A DNA stretch of 34,814 bases, from NCBI GenBank assembly GCA_016204605.1, contig JACQKK010000132.1, forward strand, positions 1 through 34,814. Direction: 5' to 3'. The translations under genes were made by a program, and so were the position numbers. This stretch comes from Candidatus Lambdaproteobacteria bacterium. GTDB taxonomy: Bacteria; SAR324; JACQKK01. Positions 1,899 through 8,379 of this stretch are shown here, piece by piece (within the stretch, counting starts at the first letter, position 1; each line of letters opens with the position of its first letter). Under the pieces are notes generated by a model. It saw only the letters and a list, made by a program, of their open reading frames with translations, was not told the DNA's origin and did not search any database.

Positions 1899-3134
1899 TC
1901 AGGCCGAGGTGCCGACCTTGGCGATCTCGGCATCGCTGGCGCGCATGTCGCCGGCCAGGAAGCTGCCCGAGCCGAACACCGTGCCGCCGGTGAAGTAGGT
2001 CTTGGTGCCGGCGAGCGTGTTGTGGCTCTGCGAGGGGGTGCCCGATTCCGCCTCGCGGCGCTGCAGGGCCGGGAAGGCCTGGATGCCCCGCTCCCGGATG
2101 TCCTTGAAGAACTCCCAGGCGCCGTTGCGGCCGGAGTGGCAATCGGCCAGCGTCATGAACAGGTACTTGAAGCCCTCGTCGGCCAGCATCTCGAAGGTAT
2201 AGAGCGGGAAGTGCGCCCGGTCCGTCCAGTCGAAGGACGAGGAGAGGTTGATGGCGAGCGGCAGGTCCGCGTGCTCGGCCCGCACCTTGCGCGCCCAATA
2301 GGTGATCGCCTCCCAGGACTGGTCCTTGAACTCGCACCAGGCCAGGTCGATGGCGCGCCGGTGGTGGATCTCCGCCCTGGCGTAACGCAGGGTGCGCTCG
2401 ACCGCGAGGTCGATGCTGCCCGCCACGCCCTCCGGGGTGTAGCGGGCGCCGGCGGCGTCGGTGCGGGCGATCAGCACGAAATCGTCATAGCCCATCTGGT
2501 CGGCCTCGCTGCGGGCGGCGAGCAGGCGCTCGATTTGCTTCTCGGCGGGGACGATCACCTTGCCGGGCAGGTGGCCGCAGCGCTTCTCCGTCTGGTCCTC
2601 GATGTGGCCCGCGGCCACGCCCGCCTGGAGCAGGGCGCGGGTGAGCGACTGCACGTGGCCGAAGCCGCCGTGGCCATCCTCCATATCCACCACCAGCGGC
2701 AGCGGGTCGCGCAGGTCGCCGTGCTCGACGTACTGCTCGCGCACCCAGTAGTCGCTGGCGCGCACCATGCGGGCGGCCTGCTCGGCCAGCTCCGCGCGGC
2801 TGAACACCCCCACGTCGGTGACGCCGTGCTCCTCGACGGCGTAGGAGAAGCCGCTCAGGTAGGCGGCCTTGAACCCGGCGTACGCCGCCAGCTTGACGCC
2901 CCCCGCGTTGTACAGGCCGGGCGCGAAGACGTACGGCTCCTTGTCCAGCAGGCGCCGCAAGACGGTGCTCGGGTGCACGGCGGCAAAGCGGAACTCGACG
3001 AACCGCCCTTCGGCGGTGGCGGCCGGTGCGACGCGCCCTTCCCGGACGGCCTGGAAGGCCAGCGCCCGCTGCTTGGCGCGGTCGGTCGATTGCACCCGTT
3101 CCGTGATGCTGTTCTCCCACATCCGAGCTTCCAT
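1899..3134 (-). CDS. aceA: Isocitrate lyase
   Basis: This enzyme cleaves isocitrate to glyoxylate and succinate, the first step of the glyoxylate shunt for growth on acetate or fatty acids. The 411-residue product has the ICL/PEP-mutase fold markers: a Mg-binding VVDMEDG (residues 148-154), the catalytic cysteine C186 in EKRCGH (183-188), ARTDA (223-227) and NLSSSFDW (296-303). The active-site loop reads K-R-C-G-H rather than the K-K-C-G-H of E. coli AceA. I recall the KR form from 2-methylisocitrate lyases (PrpB), but those are about 295 residues, and this one is ICL-length and sits 86 bp downstream of malate synthase. The ATG at 3134 follows a strong AAGGAGAAGG. It is probably co-transcribed with aceB. 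Confidence 0.9.
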   Translation of the reverse strand: MEARMWENSITERVQSTDRAKQRALAFQAVREGRVAPAATAEGRFVEFRFAAVHPSTVLRRLLDKEPYVFAPGLYNAGGVKLAAYAGFKAAYLSGFSYAVEEHGVTDVGVFSRAELAEQAARMVRASDYWVREQYVEHGDLRDPLPLVVDMEDGHGGFGHVQSLTRALLQAGVAAGHIEDQTEKRCGHLPGKVIVPAEKQIERLLAARSEADQMGYDDFVLIARTDAAGARYTPEGVAGSIDLAVERTLRYARAEIHHRRAIDLAWCEFKDQSWEAITYWARKVRAEHADLPLAINLSSSFDWTDRAHFPLYTFEMLADEGFKYLFMTLADCHSGRNGAWEFFKDIRERGIQAFPALQRREAESGTPSQSHNTLAGTKTYFTGGTVFGSGSFLAGDMRASDAEIAKVGTSA

Positions 3135-3220: not shown

Positions 3221-4885
3221 CTACGAGCCCTCGACGGGCTCCGAGGCCAGGCGGAAGAAGTCCTGCAATTCCGGCTGGATGAAGGCACGCTCCGCATCGG
3301 CGGCGGCCTTCCTGAAGCCATCGAGCACCTGCTGCACTTCGGCCGGCGGCGCGCCCTTCATCGCCGCGCGCACATCGGCGAGAATCTTCTCCAGCTCCTC
3401 GCCGAAGACCTGGCGCACGAGCGCCTCCGTGACCGGCGTGCCGTCGTCGAGGCGGACGCGGTTGTGGAGCCACTGCCAGGTCTGTGCGCGGGAGATTTCG
3501 AGCGTGGCCAGGTCTTCCATCAGGTTGTCCCAGGCCACGCAGCCGATATCCTGGTTCCAGCCGTTGGTGTAGCCGATGCCCACGCGCACGTTTGTGCGCA
3601 GACCGGCCATGGTCTTGGGGCCGATGGGCCGGGGCAGCAGGTCGGGGTACTTGTCCGAGTCCTCGTGCAGCACGTCGAGCTGGTTCCTGCGGGTGAAGGC
3701 CTCCATGGCCACCCCGATGAAGTAGGGATGGGAGACCCAGCAGCCGTCGTGGCCCCATTCGGCCTCGAGCTTCTTATCGGCCAGCACCTTCTCCGTCTGC
3801 TGCTTGCGGATCTCAGGCGTCTGGCCGGGCGTGAACGCCGCCATCCCGCCCATCCCGAACGCCCCCCGCGCATGGCAGATCTTCACGCAGCGCAACGCGT
3901 AGGCCTTCATCCAGGGCTGGCTCATGGTGATCGCGGCGCGGTCGGCCAGCACGCGATCCTTGTGCCGGCGCAGCGTCTTGATGTCGCTGAAGATCTTGTC
4001 CCAGCGCCCCACGTTCAGCCCCAGGGCATGGTCGCGCGTCTCGTAGAGGATCTCCTCCATCTGGAAGGCGGCGGGCAGCGTCTCGATCAGGAAGGTGGCG
4101 CGGAGCGTGCCCACGGGCAGCCCCAGCGTGCGTTCCATGTGGGTGAAGGCGTCGTTCCACCAGCGCGCCTCGAGGTGGTGCTCGCACTTGGGGATGTAGT
4201 ACGCGGGCGTCTTGCCCTGGCGCAGCAGCTCTTTCGCCGTGTGGAAGAACGAGAGGCCCAGGTCCACGAGCGCGCCCGCGGAGGGCTCGCCATCGACGAG
4301 CAGGTTCACCTCGGCGAGATGCAGGCCGCGCGGCCGCACCATCAGCACGGCCATGTCGGCCGGGTCCAGCCGGTACACCTTCTCCGGCCGGCCGGCCCGC
4401 GCGGGCTCGACGTGGGTGAGCGTGTTCGCCGCGGCCGCCCTCAGGTTGATCATCCCCTGCACGATGTTGCTCCAGGAAGGCTTGAGCGAGTCCTCGAAGT
4501 CCACCATCGCCGCATCGGCGCGGGCGCCATCCTCCGTGCGCGAGAGCATGTTGATGACCATCTTGGCGCTGTTGACCGGCCCAGTGATCTCGACCCGGCG
4601 GCAGAGCAGGTCCTGCGGGATGGGCGCCACCTTCCAGCTTCCCGTCGCCGCCTCGCTGCGCCGGTCCAGGTACTCGGGCGCTTGGCCCTGGTCGTAGGCG
4701 GCCTGGCGCTCCTGGCGCTGGGCCAGCAGCGCTTTGCGCCGGGCGCCGAAGGTACGCTGCAGGTCGGCCACCAACGCCACGGCTTCCGGGGTGAGCACCT
4801 GCTGGGACTGCGGCGTGTGGCCCGCCTTGGGAATCTGAACGCCGGAACCCAACTGCACCAGGTCGCGCGAGCGGGAATGGGCCAT
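3221..4885 (-). CDS. aceB: Malate synthase A
   Basis: Malate synthase condenses glyoxylate with acetyl-CoA to malate, the second step of the glyoxylate shunt. The 554-residue length suits the A isoform. Recognisable blocks are WKVAPIPQDLLCRRVEITGP (84-103), DFEDS (129-133), the metal-ligand region LIETLPAAF (266-274) and the malate synthase signature RDHALGLNVGRWDKIF (284-299). The usual Tyr after WD is Lys297 here. The C-terminal MEDLATLEISR block follows. The ATG at 4885 is preceded by GGAGG. It is transcribed ahead of aceA and divergently from a RamB/PrpR-type regulator gene. The distance to the probable promoter leaves an unusually long leader of about 300 nt. Confidence 0.96.
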   Translation of the reverse strand: MAHSRSRDLVQLGSGVQIPKAGHTPQSQQVLTPEAVALVADLQRTFGARRKALLAQRQERQAAYDQGQAPEYLDRRSEAATGSWKVAPIPQDLLCRRVEITGPVNSAKMVINMLSRTEDGARADAAMVDFEDSLKPSWSNIVQGMINLRAAAANTLTHVEPARAGRPEKVYRLDPADMAVLMVRPRGLHLAEVNLLVDGEPSAGALVDLGLSFFHTAKELLRQGKTPAYYIPKCEHHLEARWWNDAFTHMERTLGLPVGTLRATFLIETLPAAFQMEEILYETRDHALGLNVGRWDKIFSDIKTLRRHKDRVLADRAAITMSQPWMKAYALRCVKICHARGAFGMGGMAAFTPGQTPEIRKQQTEKVLADKKLEAEWGHDGCWVSHPYFIGVAMEAFTRRNQLDVLHEDSDKYPDLLPRPIGPKTMAGLRTNVRVGIGYTNGWNQDIGCVAWDNLMEDLATLEISRAQTWQWLHNRVRLDDGTPVTEALVRQVFGEELEKILADVRAAMKGAPPAEVQQVLDGFRKAAADAERAFIQPELQDFFRLASEPVEGS

Positions 4886-5192
4886 GGGTCGGTTCCTCCA
4901 GGGAAAGGTTGCCTTTTGCGCCGGCGCGGCATCCGGCCGGGACGCGCGACCCTCCCCCGAGGGAGCGGTCGCCATTCGTCCAGGATGCGTGGTTGCGCCG
5001 GTCACGGTCAAACCTTTTGGTAAGCCCCGGAGGGGGCGTCGGGTCAAATGTCGCGGGACAGGCCTACCCCCTGCCGCGGCGCCCCGCGGGTCTGTCGCCG
5101 GCCGGTGGCCCGGGGTCGCACCTCGGAGCGCCGCCGGCAGTCCTCTGGTCCGTATTCCCAAGGAACCCTGTCCAGCCTGCCAGGGAAGGAAC

Positions 5193-5218
5193 ATTATCGG
5201 TTGCGAATTCGAGAATCA
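5193..5218 (-). promoter_or_regulatory. Possible aceB promoter overlapping the operator
   Basis: On the minus strand GATAAT (5193-5198, 5 of 6 to the -10 consensus) lies 15 bp after TTGATT (5214-5219). The spacing is short for sigma70, which suggests a weak or activator-dependent promoter. The outer arm of the operator (5201-5210) falls between the two boxes, so bound regulator would block or reshape it. Confidence 0.3.
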
Positions 5219-5250
5219 AGCGAAAATTCGCTACTCGTCTGAATTCGCAA
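5201..5250. promoter_or_regulatory. Three-part symmetric operator between aceB and its divergent regulator
   Basis: Outer arms TTGCGAATTC (5201-5210) and GAATTCGCAA (5241-5250) form a perfect inverted repeat. A 14-bp palindrome AGCGAAAATTCGCT (5219-5232) sits between them. Both share the same centre (5225.5), so the whole 50 bp is symmetric and its GCGAA/TTCGC half-sites recur about every two helical turns. A further GCGAA half-site is at 5254-5258. RamB/PrpR-type regulators are known to bind TTTGCAAA-like palindromes near acetate and propionate genes. The adjacent regulator is therefore the natural ligand (inference). Confidence 0.75.
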
Positions 5251-5263
5251 ACAGCGAACGAGT

Positions 5264-5293
5264 TTGACCCCTCTTCCGTCGAAATGGTATGCT
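5264..5293 (+). promoter_or_regulatory. Putative promoter of the RamB/PrpR-type regulator gene
   Basis: TTGACC (5264-5269) and TATGCT (5288-5293) are spaced 18 bp apart on the plus strand, just downstream of the symmetric operator. Transcription would start near 5300, giving a leader of about 90 nt. Autoregulation through the operator's right-hand arm is plausible. Confidence 0.5.
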
Positions 5294-5388: not shown

Positions 5389-6915
5389 ATGCGGGAAGAC
5401 AACGTCCAGGTCGTATTCGGGCTCAAGCTGCGGCAGTTTCGTGAGGCGCGAAACCTGACGCAGAAGGTGTTCGCGGGGAAGGCGGGGCTCTCCGTCTCGT
5501 ACCTGAACGAGATCGAGAAAGGGAAGAAGTACCCCAAGGCCGATAAGATCGTGCAGCTCGCGCAGTCGCTGGGGGTGCCCTACGACGAGTTGGTCTCGCT
5601 CAAGCTGGGCCACGAGCTGAACCCGCTGGCCGCCTTCATCGATTCCCCGATGATCCGCGACCTGCCCCTGCAGCTCTTCGGGATCACGCCGCGGGAGCTG
5701 ATCGACCTGATCTCGCGCGCCCCGAACGAGGCCGGCGCGCTCATCCGCACGCTGGTGGATATCGCCCGCAGCTACGACATGCAGGTGGAGCACTTCTTCT
5801 ACGCGATGCTGCGCTCCTACCAGGAGGCGCACGACAACCACTTCGGCGAGATCGAGGAGGCCGCCCAGCGGGTGCTTGAGCGCGAAGGCTGGTCCGGCCG
5901 GACGCCGCTGCCCTGGGAGCGGCTGCGGGAGGTGCTGCAGGGCCGCTACGGCTACACCGTCGAGCTGGAGGCGCTGGAGGCCCACCCGGAGCTGACCACC
6001 TTCCGCTCGGTGTTCGTGCCCCAGCCGCCGCAGTTGCTGGTCAATCCCCGGCTCTCCCGCGCGCAGCAGGCGTTCCAGATGGCGCGCGAGATCGGCTACC
6101 GCGAGCTGCGCCTGCGCGAGCGGGGGCTCGCCTCCTCCCGCGCCGAGGTGAGCACCTTCGAGCAGGTGCTGAACGACTTCAAGGCCTCCTACTTCGCCGG
6201 GGCGCTGATGATCCAGCGTGACCTGCTGGTCGAGGATCTGGGCGCGTTCTTCAACCGCGAGCGCTGGGACGAGCAGGCATTCCTGGCCATGATGGGGCGC
6301 TACCAGGTGACGCCCGAGATGTTCCTCTACCGGCTGAGCCAGCTCATCCCCCACCACTTCGGGCTCAAGAAGCTGCACTTCCTGCGCTTCAGCAATCCGA
6401 TCGACCGGCAGGTGTTCCGGCTCTCCAAGCAGTTCAACATGTCGCGGGTGCTGATCCCGACGGGCATCGGGCTCAACGAGCACTACTGCCGGCGCTGGCT
6501 CTCGGTCGAGGTGCTGGAGGCGCTGCACCAGGTGCAGCGGCGCAAGTCGGGCGCCGTGCCGGTGATCGGCGTGCAGCGCTCGCAACTGATGGCCGACGGG
6601 CGGGAGTACTTCTGCATCGCCCTGGCGCGACCGCTTGCCCTCACCCCCGGCACCAACACCAGCGTCACGCTCGGCTTCCAGGTCAACGAGCTGTTCCGCC
6701 GGCGGGTGCGCTTCTGGAACGACCCCGCCGTGCCCGTGCGCCAGATCAACCAGACCTGCGAGCGCTGCGCCCTGGGCCCCGACGAGTGCCAGGAGCGCGT
6801 CGCGCCCCCCACCCTCTACGAGCAGCAGCAGGCGCTCGAACGCCGCAACGAGGTGCTGCACAAGCTGGTGACCGAGCGCGGCCAGCCCGCTGCCACCAGC
6901 ACGGGGCGGGGATAG
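5389..6915 (+). CDS. XRE-family short-chain acyl metabolism regulator (RamB/PrpR/ScfR type)
   Basis: This 508-residue protein has an N-terminal XRE helix-turn-helix (residues about 10-65, with GLSVSYLNEIEKGKKYP as the recognition region). A long middle region corresponds to the degenerate IrrE/ImmA-like domain. It shows no HExxH, as in this regulator family. The C-terminal DUF2083-type domain ends in a cysteine cluster, C457-x2-C460-x6-C467. The architecture matches actinobacterial RamB and PrpR, which control glyoxylate and methylcitrate genes in response to acyl-CoA status. The C-terminal cysteines may hold an iron-sulfur cluster, as I recall for mycobacterial PrpR (from memory). It is transcribed divergently from aceB-aceA with the symmetric operator between, so it very probably controls that pair. 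GGGGGAAG precedes the ATG. Confidence 0.88.
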   Translation: MREDNVQVVFGLKLRQFREARNLTQKVFAGKAGLSVSYLNEIEKGKKYPKADKIVQLAQSLGVPYDELVSLKLGHELNPLAAFIDSPMIRDLPLQLFGITPRELIDLISRAPNEAGALIRTLVDIARSYDMQVEHFFYAMLRSYQEAHDNHFGEIEEAAQRVLEREGWSGRTPLPWERLREVLQGRYGYTVELEALEAHPELTTFRSVFVPQPPQLLVNPRLSRAQQAFQMAREIGYRELRLRERGLASSRAEVSTFEQVLNDFKASYFAGALMIQRDLLVEDLGAFFNRERWDEQAFLAMMGRYQVTPEMFLYRLSQLIPHHFGLKKLHFLRFSNPIDRQVFRLSKQFNMSRVLIPTGIGLNEHYCRRWLSVEVLEALHQVQRRKSGAVPVIGVQRSQLMADGREYFCIALARPLALTPGTNTSVTLGFQVNELFRRRVRFWNDPAVPVRQINQTCERCALGPDECQERVAPPTLYEQQQALERRNEVLHKLVTERGQPAATSTGRG

Positions 6916-6936: not shown

Positions 6937-8379
6937 TCATGCCCCGCGCAGGATTTCCGCCAGCTCCCAGGCGCTCTGGAAGTTCTCCAGCCCCAGCAGG
7001 GCGTCGCGGATCTCGGCGGCGCGGCGGGGGGAGACGGCCAGCCCGGCGTTCTGCATGAACTTGTCGGCGATCTCGGCGTTGGCGAGCGGGCGCTCGGCCG
7101 CGCCGCGGTTGATGCGCTCCAGGTGGCGGTGCTCGCGCCCCGCGCGGGTGGTGACGATCACCCCGCCCGAGTACGCCTGCGGGAAGGCGTGGTCGGGGTA
7201 GACCTCGTACTCGACGCGGTCCGCGAGGCGCAGGATGTCGGGGTCGCTCAGCGCCTGCGGTTCCAGCTCGGCCAGCCCGAAGCGGCCCCGCACGAAGCTG
7301 GCCGCCACGATGAACTGCACGCTGAACTTGGCATCGTAGTCGCTGACGGGCCGACGCTTGTTGGCCACCGGCTCGCACACCACCGGGATCACCTGCTCGG
7401 GCACCAGCACCCGCACCTTGGCGATCTCCTCGGGCTTGAGCCCGTGGTCGCGCCGCAGGGCCAGGGCCGAATCGGCGTTGGCGTGGGTGAAGTGGCAGGC
7501 CGGGTACGGCTTGACGGCCACTTTATCCATCTCCCACTGTCGCCCCAGCCCCGCGGTCGCGAGGGCGTAGTCGCACTCGGCTTCGAGCGGCCCCAGGTGG
7601 CTGGCGAACAGCCCATAGCGGCCCTCGTAGGGCAGGCGCGGGGCGATGAAGCCCTGGCGCGCGAGGGCGGCGGCCGTGATCCCGCCCACCCCCGCCCAGC
7701 CCGGATGGATGCGCTTGGTCCACGCGCCGTCCTGGAGGAACTCCTGGCTGCCGGAAGCCGTGCTGAGGGCGATGCCCTGGGCCATGGCGAGCTGCTGCCG
7801 GTTGGCGCCCAGCAGCCTCCCCGCCACCAGCGCGCACAGGAAGTGGCCGATCAGCCCGGTCGGGTGGAAGCCCACGTGGTGGAAGCCGCCCCTGGCCGCG
7901 GCGGAGACGCGCGTCCCCGCCTCGATTCCCACCACGTAGGCGGCGAGCAGATCGCGCCCGCTGGCCCCCGTGTGCTCCGCCACCCCCAGCGCGCAGGGGA
8001 AGGCGCTGGCCGTGGCGTGGATCACGCCGGGCAGGTGCGTGTCGTCGTAATCCAGCCCGTGCACGAGCAGGGCGTTCATCAGCACCGCATCGCGCAGGGG
8101 CAGCCGGTCCGGCAGGCCGATCAGGCTGCACTCGCCCGAGCCGCCCAGGCCGCGCACGGCGGTCAGCGCCTTGTGGGCGAACTCCCAGCGCGTCGAGGCC
8201 AGCGCGATCCCGACCGCGTCGAGCATGAGGTGCTTGGCCCGCTCGCGCACCGGCTCGGGGATCGCGTCGCAGGTCAGCTCCACCGCGAAGCCGGCCAGCG
8301 TCTCGGCGATGGGGGTCTCGGGCCTGGCCGGCCTCGCGCCGGCGATGGCCTGGGCGGCCTGCTGCTGGGATGCGGTCAT
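6937..8379 (-). CDS. MmgE/PrpD family protein
   Basis: The 480-residue product belongs to the MmgE/PrpD fold family, which includes 2-methylcitrate dehydratase (PrpD) and cis-aconitate decarboxylase. Family features include an N-terminal helical domain with a MLDAVGIALAS stretch, HGLDYDDTH (residues about 107-115), the GxHxTG-like FHPTGLIGHF, and a second domain carrying KPYPACHFTH. The substrate cannot be read from the sequence: known members act on 2-methylcitrate, aconitate or other polycarboxylates. It converges with the RamB/PrpR-type regulator gene, 21 bp apart, and no methylcitrate synthase gene is present. GAGGAG precedes the ATG. It appears to be monocistronic with its own promoter. 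Confidence 0.88.
   Translation of the reverse strand: MTASQQQAAQAIAGARPARPETPIAETLAGFAVELTCDAIPEPVRERAKHLMLDAVGIALASTRWEFAHKALTAVRGLGGSGECSLIGLPDRLPLRDAVLMNALLVHGLDYDDTHLPGVIHATASAFPCALGVAEHTGASGRDLLAAYVVGIEAGTRVSAAARGGFHHVGFHPTGLIGHFLCALVAGRLLGANRQQLAMAQGIALSTASGSQEFLQDGAWTKRIHPGWAGVGGITAAALARQGFIAPRLPYEGRYGLFASHLGPLEAECDYALATAGLGRQWEMDKVAVKPYPACHFTHANADSALALRRDHGLKPEEIAKVRVLVPEQVIPVVCEPVANKRRPVSDYDAKFSVQFIVAASFVRGRFGLAELEPQALSDPDILRLADRVEYEVYPDHAFPQAYSGGVIVTTRAGREHRHLERINRGAAERPLANAEIADKFMQNAGLAVSPRRAAEIRDALLGLENFQSAWELAEILRGA

Follow-up and report, generated by a model that had tools for sequence, protein, structure and literature searches.

In the 34,814-nt stretch of DNA analysed here (the window), the genes of the glyoxylate shunt lie divergent to a regulator gene. 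On the minus strand, aceB (3221-4885), with a GGAGG upstream of its start, encodes a 554-aa malate synthase of the A type (PF01274; TIGR01344 551 bits, cut-off 594.5). Downstream of it on the same strand, aceA (1899-3134) encodes a 411-aa protein of the isocitrate lyase family (PF00463, 110.9 bits). The aceA product is divergent, with ~30% identity to Bacteroidota isocitrate lyases and scores far under the NCBIfam isocitrate lyase cut-offs, and it is 75% identical to that of a genome of the same family (L011). The regulator gene, on the plus strand (5389-6915), encodes a 508-aa protein with an XRE-type helix-turn-helix (HTH), a PrpR/IrrE-like body and a four-cysteine cluster site (C367, C457, C460 and C467). 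Convergent to it is an MmgE/PrpD-family gene (6937-8379), which scores far under the cut-off of the 2-methylcitrate dehydratase models.

Between the starts of aceB (4885) and the regulator gene (5389) there is a symmetric site in an AT-rich island (45% GC compared to 71% for the window). Its left arm, TTGCGAATTC (5201-5210), is the exact reverse complement of its right arm, GAATTCGCAA (5241-5250), with the starts 40 bp apart and a gap of 30 bp, and both arms share the centre 5225.5 with the core AGCGAA-AA-TTCGCT (O1, 5219-5232). The core itself is palindromic at only 12 of 14 positions because the middle AA is unpaired. Half-sites (GCGAA or TTCGC) start at 5203, 5220, 5227, 5244 and 5254, giving spacings of 17, 7, 17 and 10 bp; the left arm carries GCGAA on the plus strand (5203-5207) and the right arm, assigned to the minus strand, covers the half-site TTCGC (5244-5248). 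The first-pass annotation had described a 10-bp inverted repeat and a 14-bp palindrome around one centre, which the sequence confirms, and had called the 50 bp fully symmetric. The perfect arms and the shared centre stand, but full symmetry does not, as 32 of the 50 positions pair and both 5211-5218 and 5233-5240 are asymmetric. The repeated half-site that it listed at 5254 is present, not as a stray repeat, since it is paired with the one at 5244 in the recurrent arrangement TTCGC-N5-GCGAA, an everted pair that forms a second element (O2, 5244-5258). Inverted repeats of 10 bp are ordinary in the window (17 matches at spacings of up to 60 bp), with a chance of ~0.08 for 400 bp of similar composition; for such a repeat together with a co-centred 5+2+5 core the expectation is ~8.5e-5 per 400 bp.

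Homologues of the regulator were gathered from 98 relatives and from named genomes, and linked loci were found by tblastn with the aceB and aceA of the window. The divergent layout was found at 36 loci besides the window, and the core (GCGAANNTTCGC; GCGAA-N2-TTCGC) is present in 37/37 of the intergenic regions, which include close relatives (several Pontibacter, Arcicella and Hymenobacter) and so are not 37 independent events; order-1 simulations give an expectation of 0.00095 per region. The linked core is spread over SAR324-related bacteria, Bacteroidota-type groups, Acidobacteriota and Chloroflexota. Its middle two bases are A or T in 58 of 61 cores, and of 65 inverted pairs, 61 have their half-sites 2 bp apart. 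Of 22 everted pairs, 16 have a spacer of exactly 5 bp, and all other spacers together account for 6.

The outer half-sites are conserved to different degrees. Of 41 linked cores, 27 are preceded by GCGAA at a distance of 17 or 18 bp, compared to no more than 1/41 at the control offsets, and 11 are followed by TTCGC at the same distances, where the controls reach up to 4, which themselves represent another rung of the ladder. Every linked region has the core, usually together with the half-site on the promoter side. Conservation of the far-side half-site is largely limited to the family of the window and to some Bacteroidota-type genomes, and most Bacteroidota lack it. All six core-bearing regions of the window's family have the right outer half-site and a nearly complete ladder. 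O2 shares the half-site at 5244 in the window, and relatives L008 and L009 have TTCGC-N5-GCGAA as a separate copy, 17 bp farther along. Perfect 10-bp arms are confined to the window, and the layout with four half-sites is not universal.

The position of the core relative to the predicted aceB promoter is also shared. On the minus strand, the predicted -35 hexamer TTGATT (5214-5219; TTGACA in relatives) directly adjoins the core in the promoter alignment, and the predicted -10 TAATGT (5191-5196) follows after 17 bp, at an offset of 35, as for TAnnTTTG in Bacteroidota. The left arm falls within the spacer between -35 and -10, and the right arm is on the upstream side for aceB. In the direction of aceB, TTGACA (or TTG) usually comes directly after the core, at a constant distance, and in most regions TAnnTTTG (many Bacteroidota) or TANNNT (elsewhere) lies 34-35 bp from the first base of the core, so that the geometry is alike across phyla that have different promoter sequences. 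This is a strong trend in the sequences with exceptions, as a few linked regions (for example Pontibacter) have no TTG beside the core. With the start of the -10 element set at -12, the core would extend from about -47 to -36, with its centre at -41.5, and the half-site on the promoter side would take up about -23 to -19. With promoters that are predicted, the core, which abuts the -35/-33 element, would thus be near the -41.5 position of a class II activator, next to a half-site that could occlude the promoter. On the plus strand, a predicted regulator promoter lies beyond O2, which it adjoins (-35 TTGACC, 5264-5269; -10 TATGCT, 5288-5293; 18-bp spacer), and L006 and L007 likewise have TTGACC, 13-14 bp past the centre of O2. 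It had been proposed earlier that an operator lies between aceB-aceA and a PrpR/RamB-like regulator, that it overlaps the likely aceB promoter and abuts that of the regulator, and that a lack of conservation of the palindromes in orthologous intergenic regions would count against it. The comparison was made, and the core in 37/37 linked regions supports the operator; the predicted promoters agree with its placement.

For the regulator protein, Pfam recognises HTH_3 and a Peptidase_M78/IrrE-like domain. An AlphaFold2 model built on 48 homologues (mean pLDDT 87; residues 71-130 near 60) has its best solved match in PrpR of Mycobacterium tuberculosis (MtPrpR; PDB 6CZ6, 6CYJ and 6CYY), with Z 25.4-25.7 over ~300 residues and an rmsd of 4.6-4.8; when the single protein sequence was searched against solved structures, HTH domains alone came up, and PrpR was found by the profile and fold search. 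By this model, an N-terminal XRE-type HTH is joined to a PrpR body (IrrE-like plus GAF-like), the architecture of the PrpR/ScfR-type superfamily. The four cysteines C367, C457, C460 and C467, the number expected for a 4Fe-4S cluster, are invariant in 96 proteins and match the MtPrpR cluster ligands by order, with a different last spacing, and could hold a putative cluster. ScfR in the strict sense of Pfam PF09856 was not matched by the regulator (2 of 48 homologues matched, best E 0.005), and this C-terminal model had no match in the window's genome either. With 46 bits, the regulator stays well under the cut-off of 700 for the NCBIfam RamB model NF038139. In its setting it does resemble RamB, with divergent adjacent glyoxylate shunt genes and a conserved intergenic element that looks like a binding site. 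The site does not have the pair of near-identical boxes, 18 bp apart, that makes up the operator of class 2 RamB; it has inverted pairs with a 2-bp gap and a 17-bp ladder. On sequence and model, the regulator belongs to the PrpR fold group as a divergent member and is not RamB in the curated sense.

The closest functional parallel is RamB of Paracoccus denitrificans (class 2, ScfR family), which both activates and represses aceB-icl and changes from a tetramer to a dimer with CoA and CoA esters (PMC10370305). As in the window, its gene is divergent from aceB-icl with boxes upstream of aceB, and it is likewise an HTH protein with a CoA-binding body and a 4Fe-4S signal (PMC10370305). Unlike the window, its site consists of two similar boxes with an 18-bp spacer (oligonucleotide TGACAAACCTTACA...TGACAATACTGACTG) without the GCGAAWWTTCGC core, and the window regulator differs from it in having no significant match to the Pfam ScfRs C-terminal model. 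No crotonyl-CoA reductase was found above the cut-off in the window's genome (80% complete), so it is doubtful that methylmalyl-CoA, the ligand in Paracoccus, acts here, and the ligand probably differs. MtPrpR, the best fold match (PDB 6CYY/6CZ6; Z ~25, 21-22% identity), is a D2 tetramer (PMC6765138). It likewise has three C-terminal cysteines and one in the GAF-like part, spaced C-X2-C-X4-C compared to C-X2-C-X6-C in the window regulator, but its site is TTTGCAAA-N-TTTGCgAA and it controls prpDC. Class 1 RamB of Corynebacterium and Mycobacterium also controls acetate metabolism genes, and its box TTTGC(A/G)AA shares TTGCGAA with the outer arms in the window; the window regulator differs from it by its low score on the RamB model. 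The C.Esp1396I-like controller proteins (PDB 3CLC, a tetramer on a 35-bp operator) also place four subunits with XRE-type HTHs on a compound operator, but are small stand-alone HTH proteins of restriction-modification systems with an unrelated function. A literature search on the core sequences returned no paper on a regulator, nor one with this operator layout, although an earlier motif prediction within the ScfR classification is possible. The kind of regulator (RamB/PrpR) is known, and the motif, the layout and the probable regulon differ from the published descriptions found.

Taken together, conservation, the fixed position at the promoter, the half-site spacing, the co-occurrence with the regulator, its fold and its cysteines argue that the divergent PrpR/ScfR-fold regulator has its operator here, with a role at the aceB-aceA promoter, to which we give a probability of about 0.8. 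Very probably, a regulator of the CoA- and iron-sulfur type binds at this site, and the core O1 is the probable site of one dimer. In the scheme that we infer, which covers protein binding, activation versus repression, a tetramer-dimer switch, its ligand and autoregulation, a dimer on AGCGAAWWTTCGCT, the 14-bp core with its centre close to -41.5, would contact RNA polymerase and activate aceB as a class II activator. Using the outer half-sites 17-18 bp to either side, a tetramer (or a second dimer) could grip four half-sites over 50 bp, and full occupancy would block RNA polymerase through the half-site between -35 and -10. Binding of a CoA metabolite would then convert the tetramer to a dimer, and repression to activation, so that a tetramer whose flexibly tethered HTH domains sit on four half-sites would be replaced by a dimer on the core, and O2 may serve the regulator's own promoter. 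One tetramer would fit as well as, or better than, the several dimers suggested in the first-pass annotation, because both MtPrpR and Paracoccus RamB are tetramers. The change from tetramer to dimer would explain the 50-bp layout, the core at -41.5 and the half-site in the promoter spacer; taken by itself, we regard this switch as a tentative proposal that may well be wrong.

The half-site evidence can also be read, with less likelihood, as an operator for activation only, in which the outer half-sites are extra or autoregulatory and no tetramer represses. Many Bacteroidota have the core and one outer half-site only, and the right outer half-site of the window doubles as part of O2, as this reading would expect. 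However, the half-site that is better conserved (27/41 compared to 11/41) is the one in the -35/-10 spacer, which suits occlusion, and Paracoccus RamB represses too. The geometry makes the idea from Paracoccus RamB, that a tetramer represses and a dimer activates, directly testable, as the half-sites can be changed separately.

It is improbable that another regulator binds the core and that the adjacent PrpR-like protein is incidental. The core is present at 19 of 63 regulator loci without adjacent aceB or aceA, and at 40 regulator loci without linked aceB there is no core nearby and the recognition helix is unchanged, which could favour another protein. Covariation of the recognition helix with the presence of the core was looked for and there was no difference, so altered DNA specificity does not explain the loci without a core. 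Against another regulator, the linkage in the 37 regions is strictly divergent and core and regulator genes co-occur strongly: among the 98 relatives, AGCGAAWWTTCGCT is found in 15 of 19 regulator-bearing and 5 of 79 other genomes (Fisher p = 2.6e-10), and 4 of the 5 sites in regulator-less genomes are inside reading frames. Furthermore, SAR324 genomes in which the regulator is not beside aceB have the core upstream of aceA elsewhere (L182, L183, L184, L188, L189 and L190). An RNA hairpin (attenuator, riboregulator or terminator) is still less probable. The strand has a mild folding advantage over shuffled sequences (z -2.5), but the element is upstream of both predicted transcripts, and what is conserved is spacing rather than base-pairing of the arms, with the core alone persisting across phyla; this reading was rejected on position and conservation pattern. 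A chance arrangement, for which the commonness of 10-bp inverted repeats in the window could speak, is contradicted by the core in all linked regions at the same promoter position across phyla and can be dismissed.

If the PrpR-fold regulator does use this site as its operator, the site would provide a concrete DNA code for glyoxylate shunt control that is shared across phyla, in SAR324 relatives and Bacteroidota, where no described regulator of the pathway was found. In regulator-bearing genomes of other phyla, the core is also upstream of ilvD (six Cytophagales genomes: L170, L171, L172, L161, L167 and L155), pckA (two), gap, gltB and a 2-oxoacid oxidoreductase gene, and in a genome of the window's family (G009) it precedes a pyruvate/2-oxoacid:ferredoxin oxidoreductase-like gene; except for ilvD, these wider targets come from few genomes each. 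At pckA (L174) and gap (L168) the geometry of core and promoter is the same as at aceB, and at ilvD the core is in most cases 32-36 bp downstream of a TAnnTTTG or similar box, therefore opposite signs of control are predicted. The position at ilvD, mostly downstream of the putative promoter box, suggests that the same regulator represses branched-chain amino acid synthesis. There is a possibility, which we hold with less than even confidence, that a clade of PrpR-fold regulators found in several phyla, SAR324 and Bacteroidota among them, works through AGCGAAWWTTCGCT as a general carbon switch, activating aceBA, pckA and gap from -41.5 and repressing ilvD from downstream, with a change between tetramer and dimer that is read by the operator of four half-sites.

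Within the window's own genome, the exact 14-mer AGCGAAWWTTCGCT occurs once, and there are three exact cores, the other two with non-A/T centres in GC-rich DNA. A scan of the genome for cores with one mismatch gave 153 matches compared to 100 for the reversed control, which is mostly noise. The full-length stringent pattern TGCGAANNTTCGCA, used as a probe for the regulon, gave only chance-like matches with one mismatch because the core of the window is AGCGAA and not TGCGAA. An Acanthopleuribacter genome (G110; L156-L159) has four copies of AGCGAAWWTTCGCT with common longer flanks (TTCGCAGATGTCTGTTT..GCACCTTT); these seem to be a dispersed repeat with a core inside it, not genuine members of the regulon. 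In Saccharospirillum (L173), the sole exact core is between aceE and pyk, genes around pyruvate, and not beside the regulator. In a genome of the SAR324 genus g11 (L181), a core is 81 bp upstream of a gene that, by eye from its sequence, probably encodes an acyl-CoA synthetase.
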